64,000 nucleotides of DNA. Source: Gammaproteobacteria bacterium (GTDB lineage: Bacteria > Pseudomonadota > Gammaproteobacteria > GCA-001735895). This document shows positions 11,443-36,081 of the stretch, in pieces. Positions within the stretch are counted from its first letter, which is position 1, and each line of letters starts with the position of its first letter. The stretch covers positions 1 to 64,000 of the forward strand of contig JAOTYD010000014.1 of the NCBI GenBank assembly GCA_029862005.1. The letters are read 5' to 3'. The translations under genes and the position numbers were made by a program. The notes under the pieces were generated by a model. That model was not told where the DNA came from. It saw only the letters and a program-made list of their open reading frames with translations, and did not search any database.

Positions 11443-11483
11443 TTGACCTCAATCAACTCGGTTGCCAACGAGTGCGCATAACA
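11443..11483 (+). promoter_or_regulatory. FNR/ANR box and -10 of the CBS-protein gene
   Basis: TTGAC-CTCA-ATCAA (11443-11456) has one mismatch to TTGAT-N4-ATCAA. CATAAC (11478-11483) is centred 31 bases downstream. The start codon is at 11521, so the geometry is nearly the same as at the uspA-like gene just upstream. Confidence 0.6.
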
Positions 11484-12756: not shown

Positions 12757-12821
12757 TCTATATGAATTTGAAGCAGGTGGAGTTGATGATAGTCAATCAA
12801 ACTATCTACTCTGCTTATAAG
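12757..12821. promoter_or_regulatory. Divergent promoter region with a perfect ANR-type box
   Basis: TTGAT-GATA-GTCAA at 12783-12796 matches TTGAT-N4-GTCAA exactly. On the minus strand TATAGA (12762-12757) is centred 30 bases away, towards the DUF5335 gene. On the plus strand TATAAG (12816-12821) is centred 29 bases away, towards the racemase gene at 12910. One dimer could therefore serve both directions. Confidence 0.65.
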
Positions 12822-24596: not shown

Positions 24597-24637
24597 TTGA
24601 TCTTCATCAAGGATGCACGCTGGTTTTGCAGTTTAAT
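24597..24637 (+). promoter_or_regulatory. Perfect FNR box and -10 of the fcc-sox genes
   Basis: TTGAT-CTTC-ATCAA (24597-24610) is an exact FNR consensus. TTTAAT (24632-24637) is centred 31 bases downstream, which places the transcription start near 24645 and the box at about -41.5. The first gene, fccA-like, starts at 24748. Confidence 0.72.
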
Positions 24638-24747
24638 AGCCATAGGATTTTTAATGTTAATGAGTATCTTAATCGTAAAGCGTTGATCGAAATGGTGAAC
24701 ACGGTTAAATCAACAATAACCATGAACATAAAATGAGGAGCACCGTT

Positions 24748-25065
24748 ATGAGCAGTTTGCTTAAAATCGCAGCAAGTGGGATTGTCGTCCTGCTAATAGG
24801 GGGCGTTGGTCCCAGTCAGAGTTATGCCGCCGATGCGGTCCCGCGCGCCGAGTTACTGGCGTCTATGTGCAGCACCTGTCACGGCACCAATGGTAAAGGC
24901 GCCAAGCCCATGCCCGGGATTAACGGCGAGGAACCCGACGATTTCATCGATCTGATGCAGGCCTTCGCCAATGGTGAAGAGCCAACCAGCATCATGGATC
25001 GCCACGCCCAGGGTTATACCGAGGCCGAGCTCAAGCTGCTCGCCGAATATTTCAGCAAACAATAA
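24748..25065 (+). CDS. fccA: Monoheme c-type cytochrome, FccA-like partner of sulfide dehydrogenase
   Basis: The 105-residue precursor has a signal peptide (hydrophobic residues about 5-20, cleavage near SYAADA) and one CSTCH heme site (Cys41, Cys44, His45), followed by a PMPGI segment and a helix ending in LAEYFSKQ, typical of small class I cytochromes. It should be the periplasmic electron acceptor of the flavoprotein encoded 15 bases downstream. Classical FccA is diheme; this one is monoheme. I use ATG 24748 because TGAGGAG sits 7-13 bases before it. An in-frame ATG at 24733 would place that site inside the coding region. Confidence 0.82.
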   Translation: MSSLLKIAASGIVVLLIGGVGPSQSYAADAVPRAELLASMCSTCHGTNGKGAKPMPGINGEEPDDFIDLMQAFANGEEPTSIMDRHAQGYTEAELKLLAEYFSKQ

Positions 25066-25080
25066 TTCAGGAGAAAGACA

Positions 25081-26364
25081 ATGAAAGCATATGATCGCAG
25101 AGACTTTCTCAAGGTAATCGGAGCTGCCGGCGCGGTAACCGGTTTCGGTAGCCTGGTCTGGCCAATGGAAGCCCTGGCCGCAGCCAGCGGAAAAGTGGTT
25201 GTCGTCGGTGGCGGTTTCGGTGGAGCAACTTGCGCGCGCTACTTAAAGCGCTGGGGGCCCAAACTCGACGTTACCCTGGTCGAGCGCGATACCAGCTATA
25301 TCACTTGCCCGTTTTCCAACGAGGTGCTCGCGGGTAACCTGGAAATGAGCAAGATTACTCACGGCTACGGCAACATCGCCGCCCAGGGTATCGATGTGGT
25401 GCATGACGAGGTCACCGCTATCGATGCCGGTGGCAAATCGATCAGCCTCAAGTATGGCGGTTCGATGAAATTTGACAAGCTGGTGGTATCGCCGGGTATC
25501 GCGTTCAGGTGGGGTGCGATTGAAAATGACCAGGTGGCGGTGCAACAGGCAATGCCGCACTCGTGGAAAGCCGGTGAACAGACGCTGTTGTTGAGAAAAC
25601 AGTTACAGGCCATGCGTGACGGCGGCACCGTCATAATCGTGCCGCCGAAAAAGCCGTTTCGCTGTCCGCCCGGGCCCTATGAGCGCGCCAGCCTGATCGC
25701 GCATTACCTCAAGTCGAACAAGCCGAAGTCCAAAATTCTGATCGTCGATGCCAATCCGACCCATTCCAAGCAGGCTGCGTTTCACGAAGGCTGGAAAAAG
25801 GAATACGGCACCATGATCGAATGGATCAAGGATACCGACGGTGGCGTCATCACAAGCGCGGATCCGGGCGCCATGACCCTGCGTAACGATTTTGGCGACG
25901 AGTACAAGGGCGACGTAATCAACCTGATCCCGTATCAAAAGGCGGGTGAACTGGTCGAAACCGCCGGCCTGACCAACAAGGATGGCTGGTGCACGGTTAA
26001 TATGGGCACCTTTGAATCGGCCGAGGCCAGCGATGTGCATATCATCGGGGACGCTTGTGTTGCCGGCGCCATGCCCAAATCGGGCCACTCCGCCGCGTCG
26101 CAGGCGAAGAATTGTGCCGCTGCGATTGTTTCCATGCTTGCCGGAGATACACCGCCCGAGCCGACCTATGCCAACACCTGTTACAGCCTGATCGGGCCCA
26201 GGTACGGTATTTCGGTGGCCGCAGTTTACCGCCTCAAAGACGGGGTCATCGTCAAGGTTTCCGGCGGCGTCAGTAAAGTGGGCAACAAGGATCGGGTACA
26301 TAAGAACGAGGCCAAGTATGCCCGCGGCTGGTACAGGTCAATCACCTCCGACACGTTCGGTTGA
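25081..26364 (+). CDS. fccB: Flavocytochrome c sulfide dehydrogenase, flavoprotein subunit
   Basis: The 427-residue precursor carries a Tat signal ([12 protein letters not shown], residues 6-17). The mature part begins with an FAD-binding motif ([17 protein letters not shown]). All three cysteines important in Allochromatium FccB are present: Cys76 in [10 protein letters not shown] (covalent 8-alpha-methyl FAD link), Cys195 in [12 protein letters not shown] and Cys367 in NTCYSL (redox disulfide). It oxidises sulfide or polysulfide in the periplasm and passes electrons to the cytochrome encoded upstream. AGGAG precedes the ATG. Downstream soxYZ suggests that the sulfur product may be handed to the SoxY swinging arm. 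Confidence 0.92.
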
Positions 26365-26388
26365 GCTGATCGATATCTGGTAATGAGA

Positions 26389-26410
26389 GGGGTGGCGTTC
26401 GCGCCACTCC
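26389..26410 (+). other. Strong hairpin with TTCG loop between fccB and soxY
   Basis: GGGGTGGCG (26389-26397) pairs over nine positions, one of them a G-U pair, with CGCCACTCC (26402-26410) around a TTCG tetraloop. No T-tract follows, so it is unlikely to be a full terminator. It may stabilise the fccAB message end or reduce read-through into soxYZ. Confidence 0.5.
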
Positions 26411-26437
26411 GTATTTGAATAGGTAGTTAATGGGCCG

Positions 26438-26905
26438 ATGAGAAGACGAACTTTATTGCAAAATCTATGTGCAGTTGCGGTCACCTGGGTTGCCGGCGGC
26501 AGTGGTATTTTAAATTCGATGCTGGCGAATGCGGCACCCAGGCCGGACGCGGCGTTTCTAGCCAGGGATGTCGACACGGCGATGATGGAGGTGCTGGGTA
26601 CCCGCGAAGCCACCGCCAGCGATCAGATCAAGCTCGATGCTCCGCTGCAGGCGGAAAACGGCGCGGTGGTTCCAATCGAGGTATCGACCACCCTGCCGTC
26701 TCCCGAATCGATCGCCGTGGTGGTGCCCAATAACCCGACACCGTTGTTGAGCGTCATCGAGACCACGCCTCGTACCGGCAACTACTTCAGAATGCGAATC
26801 AAAATGGCGGGCACCGATAACGTCATGGTATATGTCAAATCAGGCGGCCAGTGGTACGTCACCTCGCAGGAAGTACGAGTTGCTATCGGCGGCTGCGGTG
26901 GTTGA
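26438..26905 (+). CDS. soxY: Sulfur carrier protein SoxY
   Basis: The 155-residue precursor has a Tat-like leader (RRRTLLQN then a hydrophobic stretch, cleavage near ANAAP). It ends in the diagnostic VAIGGCGG, whose Cys153 is the swinging-arm residue that binds sulfur intermediates covalently in the Sox pathway. It works as a dimer with SoxZ, encoded 29 bases downstream. No soxXA, soxB or soxCD lies in the window, so here SoxYZ follows sulfide dehydrogenase rather than a complete thiosulfate-oxidising operon. The ribosome binding site is weak, and the message may depend on read-through from fccB. Confidence 0.93.
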   Translation: MRRRTLLQNLCAVAVTWVAGGSGILNSMLANAAPRPDAAFLARDVDTAMMEVLGTREATASDQIKLDAPLQAENGAVVPIEVSTTLPSPESIAVVVPNNPTPLLSVIETTPRTGNYFRMRIKMAGTDNVMVYVKSGGQWYVTSQEVRVAIGGCGG

Positions 26906-26934
26906 TGCATTGATTTTGCTGAGGAATTTGCACT

Positions 26935-27249
26935 ATGGCGAAAAGACGTACAAGGCTCAAAACGGAAATAACGGACAACGGTATCCGCGCTACCTGTTTA
27001 ATCAAACATCCGATGGAAACGGGCAATCGGCTCGATTCTGACGGCAACAAGATCCCGATTCACTACGTCAAATACGTGAAGTTTTCGATCAACGGCGAGC
27101 ATGTCGGCACGCTCAACCTTGGCCCCGGGGTGTCGGCAGATCCTTATCTATCGTTCGAAATCGCCGACGTCAAGGTGGGTGATACGCTCGCCTTGCAGTG
27201 GGAAGACAACAGGGGCGAATCGGACGCCGTGGAACGCGTCGTCAAGTAG
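26935..27249 (+). CDS. soxZ: Sulfur-oxidation protein SoxZ
   Basis: The 104-residue immunoglobulin-like protein has the SoxZ pattern: RTRLKTEITDNGIRATCLIKHPMETG, YVKYVKFSINGEHVGTLNLGPGVSADPYLSFEI, and a C-terminal VGDTLALQWEDNRGES. It has no signal peptide, as is usual, because it is exported together with SoxY. GAGGAA lies about 8 bases before the ATG. A different frame at 26832-27041 overlaps both genes and is not coding. Confidence 0.94.
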   Translation: MAKRRTRLKTEITDNGIRATCLIKHPMETGNRLDSDGNKIPIHYVKYVKFSINGEHVGTLNLGPGVSADPYLSFEIADVKVGDTLALQWEDNRGESDAVERVVK

Positions 27250-27280
27250 GCGTTTCAGGGTTTACCGGGGGGCTAGAGTT

Positions 27281-28006
27281 ATGCGTAAATCGGGACTTTT
27301 GGTTATATTGCTGGCGGTTATTATCCACCCCGGAAGCGGGTTTGCTCAGCAAGGCTCGGGCACGGATTTGCCGGCCAGCGTGGCGGCGGAACTTGCGCCC
27401 AATTTCGAGTCTGGTCCGCGTCTGATCCAGGACTTGTCCGAGGAGGCGCAAAAAATTCGCCGCCAGCAGCTGATGCGTCAATCGAATCGCGTCATGCCGC
27501 CGATACCACGGGAGCAAAAAAAGGCGCTTTTCGACATGATGACCCCGGCGAGCAGCATGTCGATGCGTGATCTGTTCAATTTCATGACGGATAAAATCAA
27601 GGCTGATCCGGAATTGACCTTCGACGATGTCGTCGAGGCGATGGAACTCAAGGCCAACGAAGTCAACTTTAAGAAAGTAGGACATAACGAATTCTGGAGG
27701 GACGTCAGCGCTTATTCGGGTTTGCCGACTCTGCGGCTCGAGATACTCCAGTTCTGTGATGCCGACGTCGGTCGGCGCATGCTCGACTTCAGCCCTGAGT
27801 TTTCCATTTTCATTCCCTGCCGGATTACCGTGATGGAAGACGCCACCGGCGAAATCTGGTTGATGACGCTTGACTGGGACGTCAGTTGGCTGTCGCGCGC
27901 CTGGCAGCCGGGATCCCGGCTGGATCCGAAGCTGGTCAAGGATGCAATCCGTATCCGTGATGCGATGACGCAAATCATGCAGGCCGGTGCCTCCGGAGAC
28001 TGGTAA
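27281..28006 (+). CDS. Exported DUF302-domain protein
   Basis: The start is ATG 27281 with a run of G upstream; the frame is open further upstream only across soxZ. The 241-residue precursor has a signal peptide (GLLVILLAVIIHPGSGFAQQ), a helical region with methionine-rich SSMSMRDLFNFMTDKIK, and a C-terminal DUF302 domain (ELKANEVNFKKVGHNEFWRDV ... LRLEILQFCDADVGRRMLDFSPEFSIFIPCRITV). DUF302 proteins of unknown function are common beside sulfur-oxidation and c-type cytochrome genes. Two cysteines, in QFCDAD and FIPCR, could be redox-active. Closely spaced after soxZ, it is probably part of the operon. Confidence 0.75.
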   Translation: MRKSGLLVILLAVIIHPGSGFAQQGSGTDLPASVAAELAPNFESGPRLIQDLSEEAQKIRRQQLMRQSNRVMPPIPREQKKALFDMMTPASSMSMRDLFNFMTDKIKADPELTFDDVVEAMELKANEVNFKKVGHNEFWRDVSAYSGLPTLRLEILQFCDADVGRRMLDFSPEFSIFIPCRITVMEDATGEIWLMTLDWDVSWLSRAWQPGSRLDPKLVKDAIRIRDAMTQIMQAGASGDW

Positions 28007-28084
28007 GGCAGGCATGATCGCGGTTTGCGTTATGGCCTCGAGGTAATGCCATTATCATTTTTAATTTATTTGAAAGGTGACAGC

Positions 28085-28858
28085 TTGCAGGCACTGGCTT
28101 TTCACCGCTCGCTGGCATATTGCGTGAGTGTCTTGTTACTCGCCACACTGGCTTTTACCGCGCGGGCCGAAAGCCGCGCGACCCTTGAAATCAATGACGA
28201 AATCGAAATCGATATCGTCACGTTCGGCGAACCGGCGAAGACCGGCATTATCTGGTTTGCCTGCAGACAAGGGGAGGATGCGATCGAGTTTGCAATCGCA
28301 AGAAGGCTGGCAAGCAAGGGCTATCAGATTTATTTCCCCGATATGTTAAGTGCGCATTTCCAGTCGTCCCTGCCGTCGAATATCGCTCGGATTCCAGCTG
28401 CAGAGGTTGTCGCCGTTATCGAGCATATCATCGACAACACGAGTGCCGAGCGATTGTTCTTGCTGGCCGGTGCACGTGCCGCGGTGCCGGTAATCCGCGG
28501 CCTGGCCGATAAAAAATTGCAGCAAATGGACTCGAAACTGAAAGGCGCATTATTGATCACCCCCCGAATTTACAAAACAACGCCCGATCCCGGCTCCGAG
28601 CCGGTTTATATCGATGAAGCCGGATTGTCAATCCACCCAATCTTGGTACTGGAAGGCGAACGTACCCCCAACCGTTGGGGATTGCCGCATTTGGCAGCAA
28701 CGCTAAAAAAATCAGGCAGCCGGGTGCAAACCGATCTGATTGACGGGGTACGCGGCTATTTTTATCTGCGCGACTATCAGACCCCGGCCGAGAGGGAAAT
28801 GACCCGCCAACTCGATACATTGATTCATGATAATTTGCAGAAACTCGGAGCAAATTGA
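28085..28858 (+). CDS. Exported alpha/beta-hydrolase-like protein of the sox block
   Basis: I choose TTG 28085, which has AGGTGA just upstream and gives a standard signal peptide (QALAFHRSLAYCVSVLLLATLAFTARA). In-frame alternatives are ATG 28046 and TTG 28025. The mature protein, about 230 residues, has an alpha/beta-hydrolase-like strand order (TGIIWFACRQGEDAIEFAIARRLASKGYQIYFPD; LFLLAGARAAVPVIRGLAD), but the usual GxSxG elbow reads AGARAA, so the serine nucleophile is missing. It may be a catalytically dead or divergent member, perhaps a binding protein for a sulfur-pathway partner (inference). It is followed 2 bases later by the TlpA gene. Confidence 0.6.
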   Translation: MQALAFHRSLAYCVSVLLLATLAFTARAESRATLEINDEIEIDIVTFGEPAKTGIIWFACRQGEDAIEFAIARRLASKGYQIYFPDMLSAHFQSSLPSNIARIPAAEVVAVIEHIIDNTSAERLFLLAGARAAVPVIRGLADKKLQQMDSKLKGALLITPRIYKTTPDPGSEPVYIDEAGLSIHPILVLEGERTPNRWGLPHLAATLKKSGSRVQTDLIDGVRGYFYLRDYQTPAEREMTRQLDTLIHDNLQKLGAN

Positions 28859-28860
28859 GA

Positions 28861-29376
28861 ATGGATTTTTACCGTCACCTGATATTTAGCCTGTCGCTGG
28901 TTTTAATGGGCCAGCAGGCACAGGCTGCCACAGGTCAGTTAAAAGAATACTGGGGTGACTTGACGTCACCCGAGATCGAATTACCCGATTTGCAGGGTCG
29001 GCAGCATTCATTGACCGACTATCGCGGTAACGTCGTGCTAATACAGTTCTGGGCTACCTATTGCACGTCTTGTCGTACCGAAATGCCGACCATGAATCGG
29101 CTGATTAAAAAGATGCGAGGCAAGCCATTCAAAATCGTCACCGTCAACATGGCCGAATCACCTGGGCAGGTGCGGCAGTTTTTACAGGAAGTGCCGGTGG
29201 ACTTTCCAGTGCTAATGGATAGCGATGGCAGCACCCTGAGCCGATGGAAGGTTTTTGCCGCTCCGGCAAATTTTATTCTCGACAAGCGGGGTAAAATCAT
29301 CTTCACGCTGTACGGTGAAATCGAATGGGATTCGGATGAAATGGTCAGCCGGTTAAACGCGCTGAGCGAAGAATAA
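28861..29376 (+). CDS. TlpA/SoxW-like periplasmic thioredoxin
   Basis: The 171-residue precursor has a signal peptide ending near AQAATG and a TlpA-type thioredoxin domain with CTSC (Cys68, Cys71) in IQFWATYCTSCRTEMP, the cis-proline region AAPANFILDK, and the TlpA insertion. It should reduce periplasmic disulfides; in Sox systems SoxW plays this role for SoxY or the cytochromes. GGAG lies about 10 bases before ATG 28861, and a TTG two codons earlier is an alternative. It is the last plus-strand gene of the fcc-sox operon and meets the next cytochrome gene tail to tail with 15 bases between. Confidence 0.85.
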   Translation: MDFYRHLIFSLSLVLMGQQAQAATGQLKEYWGDLTSPEIELPDLQGRQHSLTDYRGNVVLIQFWATYCTSCRTEMPTMNRLIKKMRGKPFKIVTVNMAESPGQVRQFLQEVPVDFPVLMDSDGSTLSRWKVFAAPANFILDKRGKIIFTLYGEIEWDSDEMVSRLNALSEE

Positions 29377-29391
29377 ATTCATCCAGCAGGC

Positions 29392-30009
29392 TTAACTAGC
29401 CGAGGCATAGAAATTCAGCAGCGCCTCGATGTCCGCCTGATCCAGTTTTTTTAACTGGTTTGACATGCGCCGTGACACGAGGCGTTTGCCGCTCTGAATA
29501 TTGTTGAACTGCAACCTCAGGTAGGGCGTCCACTGTCCGGCGAGGATGGGCGCGTCATCTACCGGTTGGGTGCCGTTTTGCAGGTGACATCGTTCGCAAT
29601 GGTTCTCGTGTAGAATTGCGCCGCGACTGGCAAGTTCCGGATTAAACGCCTGACTTCTTGGGATATATTTGCGCTTGGAAAAATAATTCGCCAGCCCCTT
29701 GAGATCCGCGCCGCTCAATTGCTGCGCGATATTCCTCATGACGGTCTCGGGCTCGCCGGGCCGCTGAAATTCAATCGCGATACGCGCGTTTTCACGATAC
29801 TCTTCCATGGTATAGAGAAATCCCTCGTAGGAAAAACCGGAGATACTCGGAAAAATCGGTAACACGCTGTTACCATCCTGCCCATGGCAGATCTCGCAAC
29901 GTTTGACCAGGTCGCTAAAATCTTCGGCAGCCCCGGGAGCGGTAAATATCGCAAGGCCGGCTGTTAGTAGATAAGCGAGAGCACGGTACATGATCCGGAC
30001 CAAAATCAT
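29392..30009 (-). CDS. Diheme c-type cytochrome, c4/c553-like
   Basis: The 205-residue precursor has a signal peptide (about residues 8-28) and two heme sites: CEICH (Cys38, Cys41, His42) and CERCH (Cys138, Cys141, His142). Each half ends with a helix of the LANYFSKR/LLNFYASAS type, as in cytochrome c4-like two-domain proteins of the periplasm. It would shuttle electrons from sulfur oxidation to terminal reductases. It is the last of four minus-strand genes facing the sox block, separated from its upstream neighbour by 134 bases that hold no gene. ATG 30009 or the internal ATG 29991 may be used. Confidence 0.85.
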   Translation of the reverse strand: MILVRIMYRALAYLLTAGLAIFTAPGAAEDFSDLVKRCEICHGQDGNSVLPIFPSISGFSYEGFLYTMEEYRENARIAIEFQRPGEPETVMRNIAQQLSGADLKGLANYFSKRKYIPRSQAFNPELASRGAILHENHCERCHLQNGTQPVDDAPILAGQWTPYLRLQFNNIQSGKRLVSRRMSNQLKKLDQADIEALLNFYASAS

Positions 30010-30143
30010 CTCTTATCAAAATTATCATATGTATGCTCGATAATAATGCAAGCTTGCCGATCCCGATCAGGTAAGCCGGGAGATAATCATCGGTCAGGTA
30101 AATCGGGCCCAGGTCTTTGGCGCCGATGAAAACAAGCGGTACT

Positions 30144-30680
30144 CTATTGTGCGGGCATCGGCAGCGGCATCGGGGTGCCGGGCACCATGCCCCATGGCCA
30201 GCTGTGCATGCCCGGTAGTGGATCACCCGGATTGAGGCCGTATTTCTCCTCGACCGCGCGTTGCCAATATTCGGCGGCTTTCGGGTCCTGCATCGACGCC
30301 ATCATGTCGTTGTAGGCTTGCGGATTAGCCATCGTCATCGGATTCATCATCGCCGAGACGTAAGGGCCGAAGAATTGCTGATAGCGGCCTACGTCCTCGT
30401 TGTCATGACAGGCCGCACAGCTGCTGATCGGATTGGCCCAGATGCGCGGATCCATCGACATCGTCATCATCATGGCCCAGGAGTTGGGATCCATCGTTTT
30501 GGCTATGGTTTGAGCGGCCCGGTTAACTTCGTCGGTGTCGGACGCTGCCTGTTGGTCTTGCGCCTGCAACGGATTGCTGGCCAATACCGTTACCAGCAAC
30601 ACAAGAAATAAACCACCGGCTAAACCCGTACTCTGCGTTGAATGAAACAATTGGTTAAGCTTGATCATAGTGAAGGCCAT
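30144..30680 (-). CDS. Monoheme cytochrome c with methionine-rich DP/NPxxW/Y motifs
   Basis: The 178-residue precursor has a signal anchor (residues about 18-40), one heme site CAACH (Cys88-His92), and unusual flanking sequence: MDPNSWAMM, MDPRIWANP before the heme and MMNPMTMANPQAYNDMMAS after it. These short motifs echo the 9-residue repeats of the protein encoded at 31097. The C-terminus is Pro/Met-rich (MVPGTPMPLPMPAQ). The start overlaps the previous stop as TGATG. I know no characterised homologue. It may be a partner or cofactor-bearing relative of the repeat protein in one periplasmic complex (inference). Confidence 0.75.
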   Translation of the reverse strand: MAFTMIKLNQLFHSTQSTGLAGGLFLVLLVTVLASNPLQAQDQQAASDTDEVNRAAQTIAKTMDPNSWAMMMTMSMDPRIWANPISSCAACHDNEDVGRYQQFFGPYVSAMMNPMTMANPQAYNDMMASMQDPKAAEYWQRAVEEKYGLNPGDPLPGMHSWPWGMVPGTPMPLPMPAQ

Positions 30681-31036
30681 CACCGTGAATTGTGGATGAT
30701 ATAGTCGACCGCGGCCCTGACCTGGTCGTCGGTGAGATTCCAGTTACCGCCACGCGCCGGCATTCGTTTACCGGAAGCGCCGGTCCAGCCATTGATCGCG
30801 TGACGATACAAAACCGTCCTGCCGCTATCGATACGGTCTTTCCAGGCATTTTTATCGCCGATCCGAGGTGCGCCACCTACGCCCGGCCAGTGGCAGACCG
30901 TGCAGGTGCGATTAAATACGGTCCAGCCTTCTTTCAAGCGCTCGGTTGAGGGTTGCTCCTCGGCAAATGCCGATCCCATTAATAGCGCCAGGCTGGCGCC
31001 GAGCCCTAGTAACCAGTTGCGTAAATGATGGTTCAT
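30680..31036 (-). CDS. Cytochrome c5-like monoheme cytochrome
   Basis: The 118-residue precursor has a signal peptide ending at SAFAEE and a single heme site CTVCH (Cys45, Cys48, His49). It has the class I features GVGGAPRIGDKNAWKDRID, the likely axial methionine in KRMPARGGNWNLTD, and a final helix RAAVDYIIHNS. This matches the cytochrome c5/c555 group of soluble periplasmic carriers. It is translationally coupled to the next cytochrome (TGATG) and lies 60 bases downstream of the repeat-protein gene in the same direction. Confidence 0.88.
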   Translation of the reverse strand: MNHHLRNWLLGLGASLALLMGSAFAEEQPSTERLKEGWTVFNRTCTVCHWPGVGGAPRIGDKNAWKDRIDSGRTVLYRHAINGWTGASGKRMPARGGNWNLTDDQVRAAVDYIIHNSR

Positions 31037-31096
31037 GCGTCTTCTCGCTGCCTTATCTCGACTGTTACATTGGTCCGCTGCAATATTCCGGTTTGA

Positions 31097-31804
31097 TCAC
31101 TGGCCGGATTCGGGCTCGGCCTGCGATCGCGGCATGTAGGTCGATGGATCGAATGGATTAAAAAATGACTGCCCCTGGGGTGCCTGGCCAGGTGCCTGTC
31201 CCGGTTGCATCATCGGATTCCAGGCATTGGGATCAAACCAGTTGTACGCCGGCGCCTGGGCCGTTGTTGGCAACGAATAAGCCGCCGGATTCATCCATTG
31301 CATGTAAGTCGCGGGATTCATGTACATCGCGTAATTCCCGGGATTCATCAACTGCATATAGGTAGAGGGATTCATGAAGGTCATGTACTCCATCGGATTC
31401 ATCATCGCCATATAGGTAGAGGGATTCATAAAGGTCATGTAAGACGCCGGATTCATCCAGCTCATCCAGTTGTTGGGATTGGCGAATTGCATGTAGAACT
31501 GCGGTGTCATGAATTGTCCATAGGTTGCCGGGTTCATGAAGGCTCCATAGGTGCTGGGGCGCATGAAAGCCGACCACCCACCCGGTGTCGCCAAATTCAT
31601 CTGCAACGGAGCGCCTGGCATACTCGGCATCGTCGTCGCCCCTGGCATCGCCATCCAGGTTGACGGGTCGAACCAGTTGGGGGTAACGGGCTGCGCCTGG
31701 GCCGCGGCGGTACCCGTCGGTAATGTAAAGTACAAAGAAGTTATCGGCGGTGCCGCCCACAGCGCGCTAATCAATGCGAGGGGTGCAAATATTTTCCTGA
31801 TCAT
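31097..31804 (-). CDS. Exported Met/Asn/Pro/Tyr-rich 9-residue-repeat protein
   Basis: The start is ATG 31804 with GGAGG 5 bases upstream; an in-frame ATG at 31855 has no such site. The 235-residue product has a signal peptide (about residues 5-35). A linker with NWFDPSTWM follows, then twelve consecutive 9-residue units (residues 72-179) of consensus MNPxxYMxF/W, and a tail with NWFDPNAW and NPFDPSTYM. The protein has no Cys or His and very few charges, so heme or ordinary zinc binding is excluded. The methionine ladder could bind Cu(I), or stack aromatics as a rigid solenoid or adhesive sheet. It leads a run of cytochrome genes in a sulfur-oxidation locus. I do not recognise any described family. 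Confidence 0.72.
   Translation of the reverse strand: MIRKIFAPLALISALWAAPPITSLYFTLPTGTAAAQAQPVTPNWFDPSTWMAMPGATTMPSMPGAPLQMNLATPGGWSAFMRPSTYGAFMNPATYGQFMTPQFYMQFANPNNWMSWMNPASYMTFMNPSTYMAMMNPMEYMTFMNPSTYMQLMNPGNYAMYMNPATYMQWMNPAAYSLPTTAQAPAYNWFDPNAWNPMMQPGQAPGQAPQGQSFFNPFDPSTYMPRSQAEPESGQ
31268..31591 (-). repeat. Twelve tandem 27-base coding repeats (9-residue units)
   Basis: Units begin every nine residues at positions 72, 81, 90, 99, 108, 117, 126, 135, 144, 153, 162 and 171 of the protein without a single insertion. Pro at unit position 3 is invariant, Met or Ala fills position 1, Asn usually position 2, and an aromatic residue (Tyr/Trp) position 6. The outer units are more divergent (ATPGGWSAF first, MNPAAYSLP last) than the central ones, the usual pattern when a repeat grows from the middle. 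Confidence 0.9.
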
Positions 31805-32016
31805 GGGGACCTCCAGCAAAACCTCAACAGACGCAATCTTATTTGACAACGTCACGATTGACAGCTTTTTACTTTAAACGTTGTTGGAAGCCAGATAAAT
31901 ACCCCGCAAGATATATGGTTACCTGCCGAAGGAACTAGGATTGGATAGTTCAACCGCATAATTGCTGCTGGAGCGAAAATCCAGTCCGGCAATCATCAAA
32001 AATTTCTTCGCTTTTA

Positions 32017-32030
32017 TTGATCTGCGTCAA
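32017..32030. promoter_or_regulatory. Perfect ANR-type box between the repeat-protein and diheme-cytochrome genes
   Basis: TTGAT-CTGC-GTCAA matches TTGAT-N4-GTCAA exactly. The nearest good plus-strand -10 (GATAAT, 32065-32070) is centred 44 bases away, not 31, so the class II geometry seen elsewhere does not hold here. It lies 110 bases before the cytochrome start at 32141. The rest of the 336-base divergent gap 31805-32140 shows no gene. Confidence 0.5.
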
Positions 32031-32140
32031 CTGAAACGGAACCAGCAATTGTCTCGAGTTAGCAGATAATAAGAACATAAGACTTTATCCAAAGAAGTTG
32101 TCAATTTAAAACGACTCAATATCAACCGGGGGAAACGTTA

Positions 32141-32848
32141 ATGCATATCAAACAAATCGCCAGCTGGCTTCTTGCTTTTACATTTATAACCTGTTCACAA
32201 CTTGCCTATGCCGATGAAGTTTCGTCGATTGTACGCGGTGGAAAGTTATACGATAAATGGTACGCGGTTATCGGTGCCGCCAAGCCTGATGGCACGCATC
32301 CGGCCTGGCCTGCATCCAACACTAAAAAGAAGGGCGCCACGACCCATCGCTGCAAATCCTGTCACGGCTGGGATTTAATGGGCAAGGATGGTGCCTATGC
32401 ATCGGGTTCGTACAAAACCGGCATCGGTGGACTCACGCAACTGCAGGGTGCCGCAAACGCCAAAGTGATTGCGGCGTTGAAAGACTCGACTCACGGATTT
32501 GCCGGCAAGATGAGTCAGCAGGATTTCGACGATCTGGCCAATTTCCTGACCAAGGGGCAATTCGATATCGACGCGGTAATCGATCGTAAATCGAGAATGG
32601 CCAAAAATGGTGACCGCGCCAAGGGTGAGTCTATTTACAATACTGTCTGCGCTAACTGCCATGCAGAATCTGGCACGGAACCGGAGGGAATGCCTCCGCT
32701 CGGCGCACTTTCGAACAAAAATCCCTGGGAGACGATCCAGAAGATCATGAATGGCCAGCCGGATTCCGAGATGCCGGCGATGCATGCGTTTGGTCTTCAG
32801 GTCGGAGTTGATATTCTGTCTTACGTGCAAACCCTGCCGAAGGAATAA
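32141..32848 (+). CDS. Diheme c-type cytochrome
   Basis: The 235-residue precursor has a signal peptide ending near AYADE and two heme sites: CKSCH (Cys71-His75) and CANCH (Cys170-His174). The segment IVRGGKLYDKWYAVIG before heme 1 resembles the N-terminal region of several thiosulfate- and sulfur-related diheme cytochromes, including TsdA-like proteins. The match is too partial for me to call it thiosulfate dehydrogenase. A run of G lies before the ATG. It is transcribed alone between the repeat-protein operon and the convergent rhodanese gene. An ANR-type box lies upstream. Confidence 0.82.
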   Translation: MHIKQIASWLLAFTFITCSQLAYADEVSSIVRGGKLYDKWYAVIGAAKPDGTHPAWPASNTKKKGATTHRCKSCHGWDLMGKDGAYASGSYKTGIGGLTQLQGAANAKVIAALKDSTHGFAGKMSQQDFDDLANFLTKGQFDIDAVIDRKSRMAKNGDRAKGESIYNTVCANCHAESGTEPEGMPPLGALSNKNPWETIQKIMNGQPDSEMPAMHAFGLQVGVDILSYVQTLPKE

Positions 32849-32900
32849 TAGCGGCCGGTCCCTGGCTAAGGCATGAACCGTTTTTTACCGGCCTGCAAGA

Positions 32901-33818
32901 TTAGTCGGCCAGGCGGGTGGTCATCGGGTTGGTTTTGTACTGCGTCCACTGGTGCAGCGAACCGTCGTACAACTTGACGTCCTGCTTGCCGACTATTTCG
33001 CGCAACACGAACCAGGCTGATGAAGCTTCATATCCGCTGTTGCAGTACAGGATCAGGCTATCGCCAGTATCGATGCGTAGCGAATCGAGCAGATTTAGGT
33101 AAGATTCGCGGTCGAAGTAACGATTGCCACCTTTCATCGGATTCAGAAACTTATACGGCATATTGCGTGAGCCTGGAATATGCCCGGGGGCGTATACGTA
33201 ATCCTTCTTTTCGAGACCGACATGATAGCGTAGCTCACGCGTATCGATCAGCGTCACCGCATCATCCTGCAGCGCTGCCCGAACCTGCTCCATGGTCGCC
33301 ACCACGTCCGGCTTTTCATCGCCAACCACGTAATTACCGGGCGTTACCACGGCTACTTCGGTAACCAGCTCTTCGAGCGAGGCGACCCAGCCCGGATTGC
33401 CGCCATCGAGCAACGCTACCCGGTCGAAACCAAAATATTTCATCTGCCAATACAGGCGCGCGGCACCGGTGACCTGCCCGGAGGTTTTGCCGAGATGCGT
33501 TAAAACCACCGTGCTGTCATTATTAACCCCGTGCGCGCGCATGAATTTTTCGAAGCCGGCGGGATCTGGCCGCATCCGCGTCATGTTCTTGTCATTGATC
33601 TCACGCTCGATGCGGATCTCCTTCACGTTGACGAGTATCGCGCCCGGGATATGCCCGTCAGCGAAGCTCTCAATATCCTTGCGCACATCGAGGACCAAAA
33701 CCTCGTCGATATTATCGACCAGCCATTCGCCTGTGATCAGCGGCCCGGGTAGTTCGGCCGCGGCCAATCGTGACCCATAAAAAAGGCCAAGCATTACCAG
33801 CATCACTAATTTCTTCAT
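32901..33818 (-). CDS. Periplasmic two-domain rhodanese (sulfurtransferase)
   Basis: The 305-residue precursor has a signal peptide ending near AAAELP and two rhodanese domains. The N-terminal domain (about 30-150; LDVRKDIESFADGHIPGA) has lost the active cysteine (VLTHLGKTSGQVT). The C-terminal domain (about 170-300) keeps it, as Cys259 in LYCNSGYEAS. This is the thiosulfate:acceptor sulfurtransferase arrangement. In the periplasm it could move sulfane sulfur between thiosulfate, polysulfide and SoxYZ. Its upstream region has an ANR-type box with a CATCAT -10 at exactly the class II distance, so it is probably expressed together with the sulfide dehydrogenase genes. Confidence 0.88.
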   Translation of the reverse strand: MKKLVMLVMLGLFYGSRLAAAELPGPLITGEWLVDNIDEVLVLDVRKDIESFADGHIPGAILVNVKEIRIEREINDKNMTRMRPDPAGFEKFMRAHGVNNDSTVVLTHLGKTSGQVTGAARLYWQMKYFGFDRVALLDGGNPGWVASLEELVTEVAVVTPGNYVVGDEKPDVVATMEQVRAALQDDAVTLIDTRELRYHVGLEKKDYVYAPGHIPGSRNMPYKFLNPMKGGNRYFDRESYLNLLDSLRIDTGDSLILYCNSGYEASSAWFVLREIVGKQDVKLYDGSLHQWTQYKTNPMTTRLAD

Positions 33819-33843
33819 AACAACACCTCATTTCAATAATACA

Positions 33844-33884
33844 ATGATGCTGAGTCTGGGGGACGCAACCATGACCTTAATCAA
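33844..33884 (-). promoter_or_regulatory. FNR/ANR box and -10 of the rhodanese gene
   Basis: On the minus strand TTGAT-TAAG-GTCAT (33884-33871) has one mismatch to TTGAT-N4-GTCAA. CATCAT (33849-33844) is centred 31 bases downstream, and the start codon lies at 33818. Confidence 0.55.
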
Positions 33885-33926
33885 TTAAAACCATCAGGAT
33901 CAGGTGCGGCCTGTCACTAGACCGAC

Positions 33927-35297
33927 TTAACTGTAAAACATGTCGCGGTACATGCCCTCGGCCCAGGCCAGGCTGGCCTGCCCACCCTGCGTATCCCAGC
34001 GCTCGATCAAATGCGTACGGTCGAACGCGAACTCGCCGGTTTGGTCGCTGAACTTGTAGTAGGTAATGATGCTCATCGCGCGCAGTGGTTCTATGTCGAC
34101 CGCGGAAAAACACATGGTTTGTGGACTGCGCCAGCGCACCTCCTTGTCGAGGGCGTGTGCGGCGATCACCTCGGCGACATACTGTGCTTCCGAGTGCGCG
34201 GTATGCCCACCCTTTGAAAAAGGTTGTGAACGCGAATCGCCGGTCACGTAAACGCGTTCGTCGTCGAGCAGGTGATAACGAAACGGGTCGGTATTGGCCG
34301 CCTTTTGCGAGCTGATCGGGCTGGCGATGCCGTTATCCTCGATCAGGCGCGACGCGCGCACCGGCGGGTAAATAATCGCGTCATCGAAATCGTACTCGTC
34401 GAACTCGGTTTCGACGCGGCGCCTTTCAATGTCGACGTTGCTGATCTCGGAACTCGACAGATACTCGATGTAATCGCCGTAGAGTTCGGCGAAGGCGCGC
34501 GCAAAACCGTGTTTCTTGATGCGGATTTCGGCATTCATGTCGAGCAGCAGAATTTTTGCGCGAACGCGCTGGCGCTTGAACAACGCTGCTATCATGCAGG
34601 CGCGCTCGTAGGGTGCGGCAGTACAGCGAAAGTCACCATTGGGTACGTTGAGCAGAAATGTGCCGCCGTTGAAGCGGTGAATCTTGCGCTTGATTGTCAA
34701 CAGTTCCGAGCTTGAGACAAAACCGCCGGGATAGCGGTGAAACAGCAGGTTTTGCGACTCGGTATCCTCGACCCCAATACGCGCGTAGTCGTATTCGATA
34801 CCGGGTGCGAGCACGAGATAGTCGTAGTCGACGAAGCCTTTTTCGGTGTAGACGCGGCGGGTCTCGCGGTCGAAACCGAGTACGGTTGCCTGCATGAAGT
34901 GGTAATCGTGGTTATTCGCGGCATCGAAAAAACTGTGACTCAGAAAATCGAGATCGACCTGGTCGGCGAGCCATGAATTGCTAATTGGAAAGGATACGAA
35001 TGCCGACTGGCGGTCGATCAACAGCACGTCAAAGCCGGGATTGAAACGGCGCAGGTACTTCGCCATCGTCAGTCCCGACCAGCCACCACCAACGACCACG
35101 ACGCGTTGCCCCCGGGCCCGTGGCAAAGTGGCCTTGCGCAACAGGCTGTTGAGCGCGGGCGCCTGCTGTATTTCGTTCTTATCCGCACCCGTCGCGACGT
35201 TGGTGCTAACCGTGGTTGCCGCGAGCGCGACGCCGGAGGCTTGCAGAAATCTACGCCGCTCGAGATTAGTGTTTATTTTCATCTTTGGGGCCTTCAT
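33927..35297 (-). CDS. FccB-like flavoprotein lacking the covalent-FAD cysteine
   Basis: The 456-residue precursor has a Tat signal (ERRRFLQASGVALA, residues 13-26), an FAD motif (VVVVGGGWSGLTMAKYL) and the sulfide-dehydrogenase flavoprotein plan. The flavin-linking cysteine of FccB is replaced by serine: FVSFPISN (Ser102) against ITCPFSN in the paralogue at 25081. The redox pair is kept as Cys225 (FRCTAAPYERA) and Cys396 (QTMCFS). It should therefore bind FAD non-covalently and may use another sulfur substrate. The four-base overlap with the diheme cytochrome gene upstream shows that the two form a flavocytochrome-like pair. Confidence 0.82.
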   Translation of the reverse strand: MKAPKMKINTNLERRRFLQASGVALAATTVSTNVATGADKNEIQQAPALNSLLRKATLPRARGQRVVVVGGGWSGLTMAKYLRRFNPGFDVLLIDRQSAFVSFPISNSWLADQVDLDFLSHSFFDAANNHDYHFMQATVLGFDRETRRVYTEKGFVDYDYLVLAPGIEYDYARIGVEDTESQNLLFHRYPGGFVSSSELLTIKRKIHRFNGGTFLLNVPNGDFRCTAAPYERACMIAALFKRQRVRAKILLLDMNAEIRIKKHGFARAFAELYGDYIEYLSSSEISNVDIERRRVETEFDEYDFDDAIIYPPVRASRLIEDNGIASPISSQKAANTDPFRYHLLDDERVYVTGDSRSQPFSKGGHTAHSEAQYVAEVIAAHALDKEVRWRSPQTMCFSAVDIEPLRAMSIITYYKFSDQTGEFAFDRTHLIERWDTQGGQASLAWAEGMYRDMFYS

Positions 35298-35998
35298 TTG
35301 AAATCGGGATTACGCCAGGCCGTATCGGGCGCGAGATCGGATGCCGGCACCGGCAGATGCGATACGTAATTCAACACCTGGTCGAAATCCTGTTCCGACA
35401 GCGTCGTGAACAGGTTGGCCATCACCGGCCCGACCCGGCGCAGGCGGTCGCGCGCCAGGCGGGCCTGGCGTTTCATGTAGGTATAGTGCTGTCCCTGCAG
35501 GCGCGGATAGGACAGCTCGTTGTTACCCTCGCCGGACTGCCCGTGGCAGCTACTGCAGTATTGCAGGTAGAGCTTTTTACCGGATTCGTATTCGTCGCTG
35601 TCCCCGGGCCAGGGTCCGCGGTTGTGCGCCGGGTTCATCGGCAGCGTCGAAATATAGGCAACCACGTCGCTCAGGTTCTGGTAACCGCCGATGGTGCGCT
35701 CCTGCACGAACGGCTGCATTGACGGGTTGTCGCGGCGCCCGCTGCGTATATCGAGCAATTGTTTCATAAGTACGTTGACGTGCTGACCGGCGATTTGTGG
35801 ATAGGTGCCGTCGTCGTTACCCCAGGCCTCGGGCAGGTGGCAGCGCGCGCAGATTTCGAAACTGCGACGACCATTGTCGTGGTCGGGTATGAATTCGAGC
35901 ACCACGCGAATCGGTTCGGTAGCAACCAGTTTCGATGAAAACACCAATACAAGTATGCAAAGGCTATGGCAAAGCGTTAGACATATCCTGTTCATCAA
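35294..35998 (-). CDS. Diheme cytochrome c, FccA-like partner of the second flavoprotein
   Basis: The 234-residue precursor has a hydrophobic signal (residues about 4-24) and two heme sites, CARCH (Cys50-His54) and CSSCH (Cys148-His152), in a c4-like two-domain arrangement with IAGQHVNVLMKQLLDIRSG and LQGQHYTYMKRQARLARD repeats. Diheme FccA of purple sulfur bacteria has the same two-domain layout. Overlap with the flavoprotein gene (ATGA) supports a heterodimer in the periplasm. A class II FNR/ANR promoter lies upstream. Confidence 0.86.
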   Translation of the reverse strand: MMNRICLTLCHSLCILVLVFSSKLVATEPIRVVLEFIPDHDNGRRSFEICARCHLPEAWGNDDGTYPQIAGQHVNVLMKQLLDIRSGRRDNPSMQPFVQERTIGGYQNLSDVVAYISTLPMNPAHNRGPWPGDSDEYESGKKLYLQYCSSCHGQSGEGNNELSYPRLQGQHYTYMKRQARLARDRLRRVGPVMANLFTTLSEQDFDQVLNYVSHLPVPASDLAPDTAWRNPDFK

Positions 35999-36040
35999 CG
36001 GTGGCCGAATTTCCCCGGTTTAAGCTAATATTCACAACAA

Positions 36041-36081
36041 ATTCTAGGGAAGTTGCCGATGTATCGATTGATCGGCGTCAG
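36041..36081 (-). promoter_or_regulatory. FNR/ANR box and -10 of the second flavocytochrome pair
   Basis: The palindrome at 36068-36081 reads TTGAT-CGGC-GTCAG on the plus strand, one mismatch from consensus. TAGAAT on the minus strand (36046-36041) is centred 31 bases towards the gene that starts at 35998. Confidence 0.62.

Follow-up and report, generated by a model that had tools for sequence, protein, structure and literature searches.

Sulfur-oxidation genes are generally discussed as being controlled by sulfur-sensing repressors. The sulfur-oxidation island considered here, which belongs to an uncultured gammaproteobacterium with relatives known from sediments, raises the question of whether such genes can also be placed under FNR/ANR-type regulators, as a sequence-only reading had proposed from palindromes standing before several of its genes. 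The source assembly amounts to 3.99 Mb in 105 contigs and is 97% complete; the window, that is, the whole stretch of DNA that was analysed, covers positions 1–64000 of contig 14.

The gene content of the island points to the oxidation of both sulfide and thiosulfate. The small c-type cytochrome subunit of sulfide dehydrogenase is encoded by fccA (24733–25065, + strand; Pfam cytochrome c), and the flavocytochrome c sulfide dehydrogenase flavoprotein by fccB (25081–26364, +), which matches both FCSD_central and FCSD-flav_bind in Pfam and adjoins the cytochrome subunit, so that the pair qualifies as FccAB. The following genes, soxY (26438–26905, +) and soxZ (26935–27249, +), score above the cut-offs of the NCBIfam equivalog models TIGR04488 and TIGR04490, respectively, and thus encode the SoxYZ thiosulfate carrier. 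Genes for a DUF302 protein, a secreted protein without annotation and a TlpA/ResA-like thioredoxin (27281–29376, +; Pfam), whose order is kept in relatives, probably form one operon with fccAB-soxYZ. A divergent run of conserved order (29392–31855, −; Pfam) encodes a diheme cytochrome, a small cytochrome-like protein, a monoheme cytochrome and an NP-x-x-YM repeat protein. The latter, with its NP-x-x-YM/MNP repeats (31097–31855, −), is exported, accompanies the island in at least four relatives and has no match in Pfam or NCBIfam; it is possibly a structural or sulfur-globule-like protein, which is a guess. The remainder of the island consists of a diheme c-type cytochrome gene (32141–32848, +; Pfam), for whose product a search for a related solved structure gave none, an exported tandem rhodanese (32901–33818, −; two stretches matching Pfam Rhodanese), a second, diverged fccB-like flavoprotein (33927–35297, −) with a match to Pfam FCSD_central and none to FCSD-flav_bind, and a second fccA-like cytochrome, which is diheme (35294–35998, −; Pfam).

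All four palindromes on which the proposal of FNR/ANR-type control was built are present. Two are exact instances of TTGAT-N4-RTCAA: TTGATCTTCATCAA, upstream of fccA-fccB-soxY-soxZ (24597–24610, +), and TTGATCTGCGTCAA (32017–32030, +), upstream of the diheme cytochrome gene and also of the divergent run. The other two have one mismatch each: TTGATTAAGGTCAT, as read on the − strand upstream of the rhodanese gene (33871–33884), and the weaker box CTGACGCCGATCAA upstream of the second flavocytochrome pair (36068–36081, −; TTGATCGGCGTCAG on the + strand). The claim that a −10-like hexamer is centred 31 bases from the box centre at three of the four sites was also borne out: TTTAAT (24632–24637, +) for fccA, CATCAT (33844–33849, −) for the rhodanese and TAGAAT (36041–36046, −) for the second flavocytochrome pair all start 21 nt after their box. 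At class II promoters the box centre lies ~41.5 bases before the start, i.e., ~31–32 before the −10 centre; this distance is found at 24597, 33871 and 36068 and not at 32017, where no comparable −10 follows at class II spacing in this genome.

The genome also encodes Crp/Fnr proteins with matching recognition residues, on which the proposal depended. An FNR-type protein on contig 30 contains the motifs CHICEPRGGC, SLCRFP and VETVSR, which correspond to C-x2-C-x5-C, the fourth cysteine and the ExxSR helix; the first two align with C20/C23/C29 and C122 of the solved FNR and the third with its recognition helix, and the motifs occur in most relatives. Against the NCBIfam model of the Fnr subfamily (NF008365) the protein scores 195.6 bits, below the cut-off of 228, and it is therefore labelled here as FNR/ANR-type rather than as a member of the curated Fnr subfamily. 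The second protein, a DNR homologue encoded on contig 2, lacks the N-terminal cysteine cluster, has a PETFSR helix and adjoins the heme d1 operon nirE-J; its best PDB match is 3dkw, the DNR of Pseudomonas aeruginosa (E 1.3e-45). Recognition of TTGAT-N4-ATCAA is established for ANR and DNR. The same is true of FNR (PMC5398030), and the recognition residues suggest that the FNR-type protein and the DNR homologue should both read this sequence.

The frequency and placement of such boxes were assessed by exact-pattern searches of the genome together with selected genome stretches, and by a matrix scan of the 64-kb window. TTGAT-N4-RTCAA has 88 strand matches genome-wide, ~6-fold more than the control with an N5 spacer (15 matches); the reversed pattern yields 3 strand matches, but this control was judged to be biased because the pattern contains TAG, and the spacer control was used instead. 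In the genome stretches examined there are 62 distinct sites, 46 of them intergenic according to a simple ORF caller. Genes located 3′ of boxes include hemN, ccoN, a cbb3-type P-type ATPase gene, nrdD, nirS and two usp genes, and further boxes precede nirE (the head of nirE-F-D-L-G-H-J), hemerythrin, a CBS-domain protein and tusA. Textbook targets of FNR/DNR are represented in this set by hemN, ccoN, nrdD, nirS, nirE-J and usp, the first three being classical FNR/ANR targets. Thus, the objection that such boxes may be as frequent by chance is contradicted, given the excess over the spacer control and the concentration of sites at textbook targets. Outside the window, 42 sites could be oriented; a −10-like hexamer (≥4/6 matches) starts at 21 nt in nine of them and at 22 nt in seven, compared with 0–6 at most other offsets, but 8 at offset 30. 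Exact FNR-type boxes were also observed before tusA and before a gene for a cytochrome c-rhodanese fusion (L041:3750 and L053:3969); to judge by their sequences, both are further sulfur-related box-bearing genes outside the window.

These targets bear on which of the two proteins would use the boxes. It is possible, if rather unlikely, that the main user is the DNR homologue and that nitric oxide arising from nitrite reduction, and not low oxygen as such, serves as the signal: the closest solved relative of this protein is P. aeruginosa DNR, its gene lies next to nirE-J, and its PETFSR helix is expected to recognise the TTGAT-N4-RTCAA box, which also stands before nirS. Against this, the same class of box stands before the classical FNR/ANR targets hemN, ccoN and nrdD, and an FNR match was obtained in 35 of the 41 genomes of the family.

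In the matrix scan, for which the matrix was trained on 11 FNR/DNR-type target sites, all outside the window, and the chance level was derived from 30 Markov shuffles, the box at 24597 ranks first in 64 kb (0 expected, and no equal in 30 shuffles) and that at 32017 fourth (0.1 expected). The 33871 box is marginal, at rank 11 with about 1.9 expected by chance, and the 36068 box scores at chance level, with about 47 equal or better sites expected per 64 kb. Elsewhere in the window, the second-best FNR-type box, TTGATGATAGTCAA (12783–12796), is flanked by a DUF5335 gene (−) and an alanine-racemase-like gene (+), and another FNR-type box, at 11443, precedes a CBS-domain gene.

Comparison with relatives shows which parts of these promoters have been retained. 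Upstream of fccA, the box, a 21–22-nt spacer and the −10 are kept in five species, the host included. In three close species, TTGACCCTCATCAA precedes fccA and is followed 21–22 nt on by TTTAAT; from box to −10, these promoters are 80–83% identical to that of the present genome, whereas identity falls to 18–27% in the 60 bases upstream and to 38–40% downstream of the −10. The relative G028 has a box identical to TTGATCTTCATCAA, a 21-nt spacer and TCTAAT, about 540 nt upstream of fccA, and a distant copy from the same genus (L088) has TTGATTTGGATCAA 91 nt before fccA. At the G028 locus (L099), three FNR-type boxes were seen within 330 nt upstream of fccA, about 877–1203 nt before fccB, one of them identical to the 24597 box of the window.

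The same block bears on the idea that a sulfur-responsive ArsR-type repressor of the SoxR/SqrR/BigR kind is the main control and that the FNR-like boxes carry little weight. Control of this kind has been described elsewhere among sulfur oxidisers, for instance for Hyphomicrobium denitrificans in the accessible parts of PMC10451225 and PMC12423496; however, what is conserved before fccA is an FNR-type box with its −10, the flanks not being conserved, and Pfam scans of island proteins detected no regulator among them. We regard this explanation as quite improbable, although the two kinds of control may act side by side.

When 9,216 inverted-repeat motifs (5-base half-site, spacer 0–8) were compared, TTGAT-N4 ranked first in the upstream sets of both fccA and the diheme cytochrome gene; its ranks of 9 and 18 in the rhodanese and second-flavocytochrome sets, respectively, are both confounded by distant orthologues, whose upstream DNA is coding. 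A box of the exact class precedes 16 of 21 orthologues of the diheme cytochrome gene; its distance from the gene varies, and it occurs in the host family and in one of the four other families that were tested. The 32017 site, to which the sequence-only reading attributed poorer geometry, is thus the best conserved of the four boxes, in addition to its matrix rank of 4. Of 11 orthologues of the rhodanese gene, 8 have the box, and seven of these eight have CAT[CG]AT exactly 21 nt on, despite changes in the spacer sequence. For the second flavocytochrome pair, box and −10 are kept only in four close relatives, and since these share about 90% protein identity the conservation of the 36068 site is not discriminating. 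An offset of 21 nt for the −10 is the best or joint best in all four orthologue sets, and two relatives show synteny across the entire island, all four boxes included. A fifth, weaker box, TTGACAAAGATCAC with TATCAT at 21 nt, was noticed in two relatives before the island-adjacent CBS-domain gene (L210:16590 and L211:16936); its copy in the window, at about 38973, is degenerate (ATGATATTGATCAC).

It should be asked at this point whether these palindromes simply arose by chance in AT-rich intergenic DNA, given that two of the four contain a mismatch and that the 36068 box scores no better than chance. The matrix ranks, the spacer control, the motif ranking and the footprints all speak against this, and for 24597, 32017 and 33871 it is already contradicted; as a general explanation it is hardly credible. 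The arrangement is nevertheless restricted in range. In other families, fccAB is preceded by a box at only 2 of 15 loci, and in G029 (79% FccB identity) fccAB has no upstream box and directly follows a NapC/NirT tetraheme gene (L209:4324–6590). The control thus appears to be mainly a trait of the host's lineage.

Collectively, the two regulators, the enrichment and the conserved boxes with their −10 spacing support FNR/ANR-type control of the island, the 36068 site being weak, and FNR/DNR-type activation is well supported at the level of sequence. We estimate a probability of about 0.82 that the island belongs to an FNR/DNR regulon and is activated in class II style when oxygen falls and/or nitric oxide appears. 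In the scheme that we propose, FNR with an intact Fe–S cluster would act as oxygen falls, and/or the DNR homologue would respond to nitric oxide, and the respective dimer would bind the boxes. From a TTGAT-N4-ATCAA-type box ~41 bases before the start, the dimer would activate RNA polymerase in the manner of class II FNR promoters and so induce fccAB-soxYZ, the gene for the exported rhodanese and, probably, the second flavocytochrome pair; the box before the diheme cytochrome gene would act at another spacing.

FNR-family proteins are also capable of repression, and the boxes might be operators through which FNR or DNR silences the sulfur genes under anoxia, an arrangement with which the 32017 box, devoid of a class II −10, would agree. 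We nevertheless infer activation: three of the four boxes stand at the class II activation distance, which is kept in orthologues. Furthermore, in the gammaproteobacterium Candidatus Thiosymbion oneisti, sulfur-oxidation genes rise together with denitrification genes without oxygen, whether sulfide is present or absent (PMC8269255). Repression of the island is accordingly a very unlikely reading.

With activation as the preferred reading, the next issue is where the electrons would go. The sequence-only reading had suggested sulfide oxidation coupled to nitrate or low oxygen. A search of the genome gave no narG match above the cut-off, and none of three molybdoenzymes scanned with NCBIfam exceeded the NapA cut-off; nirS, heme d1 genes and a cbb3 oxidase are present. 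Nitrite/nitric oxide or low oxygen is therefore likelier than nitrate, so that the nitrate part of the suggestion is not upheld, the low-oxygen part agrees with the cbb3 oxidase, and nitrite/nitric oxide is suggested by nirS and the heme d1 genes. The cbb3 oxidase and nitrite-reduction genes carry the same class of box as the sulfur island, and electrons from sulfide and thiosulfate may pass through a periplasmic cytochrome pool to the cbb3 oxidase or to nitrite/nitric oxide reduction. Elsewhere, orthologues of the diheme cytochrome gene usually precede a NapC/NirT tetraheme gene, which suggests that this cytochrome is an anaerobic electron-transfer protein placed in a sulfur island; the NapC/NirT gene before fccAB in G029 is another link between sulfide dehydrogenase and anaerobic electron transfer. 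The genome also contains dsrA, with no box before it, and the cytoplasmic sulfur pathway is thus not visibly under the same control. Conserved boxes for low-oxygen/denitrification regulators at the sulfide and thiosulfate genes make it probable that sulfur oxidation is turned on at low oxygen, and not only when sulfur appears.

The mechanism is a known one and it is the target genes that are unusual. In box, class II spacing and regulators the system resembles the FNR/ANR/DNR regulons of denitrifying proteobacteria (E. coli FNR, P. aeruginosa ANR/DNR, Dinoroseobacter FnrL/Dnr; PMC5398030), with which it shares the core targets hemN, ccoN, nrdD, nirS, nirE-J and usp, whereas the host's regulon extends to fccAB, soxYZ, the rhodanese, the sulfur-island cytochrome and tusA. 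There is a parallel in Rhodopseudomonas palustris TIE-1, where a Crp/Fnr-type regulator, FixK, governs the anaerobic use of an inorganic electron donor through control of the iron-oxidation operon pioABC; the donor there is ferrous iron, class and regulator differ and the host is phototrophic (PMC3050613, accessible part). In H. denitrificans, sulfur oxidation is likewise tied to anaerobic respiration at the transcriptional level, since the sulfane-sulfur-responsive ArsR repressors SoxR and sHdrR regulate sulfur genes and also influence nitrate respiration; as far as the accessible parts of the two papers go, however, the sensors there are sulfur sensors, whereas here a respiratory regulator appears to reach sulfur genes (PMC10451225, PMC12423496). 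For Ca. T. oneisti the evidence consists of expression data, FNR being absent from the text of the paper (PMC8269255), whereas the present case is known from binding-site sequences. Searches of open-licence full texts yielded no paper describing FNR-type boxes upstream of fcc or sox genes, which is weak evidence.

We tentatively suggest, at somewhat less than even odds, that in the host family the entry of electrons from sulfide and thiosulfate into the periplasmic electron-transfer chain is gated by an oxygen/nitric oxide sensor and not by sulfur, with nitrite reduction and the high-affinity oxidase belonging to the same regulon. If sulfide dehydrogenase and soxYZ are under a conserved switch of this type, the sulfide-independent anoxic rise seen in some gammaproteobacteria (PMC8269255) would find its explanation at the promoter level, and oxygen/nitric oxide gating, if true, would be a transcriptional cause of the anoxia-induced sulfur oxidation reported in other gammaproteobacteria. 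The box, 21-nt spacer and −10 would then provide a simple sequence marker of which sulfur oxidisers tie donor use to the electron acceptor.
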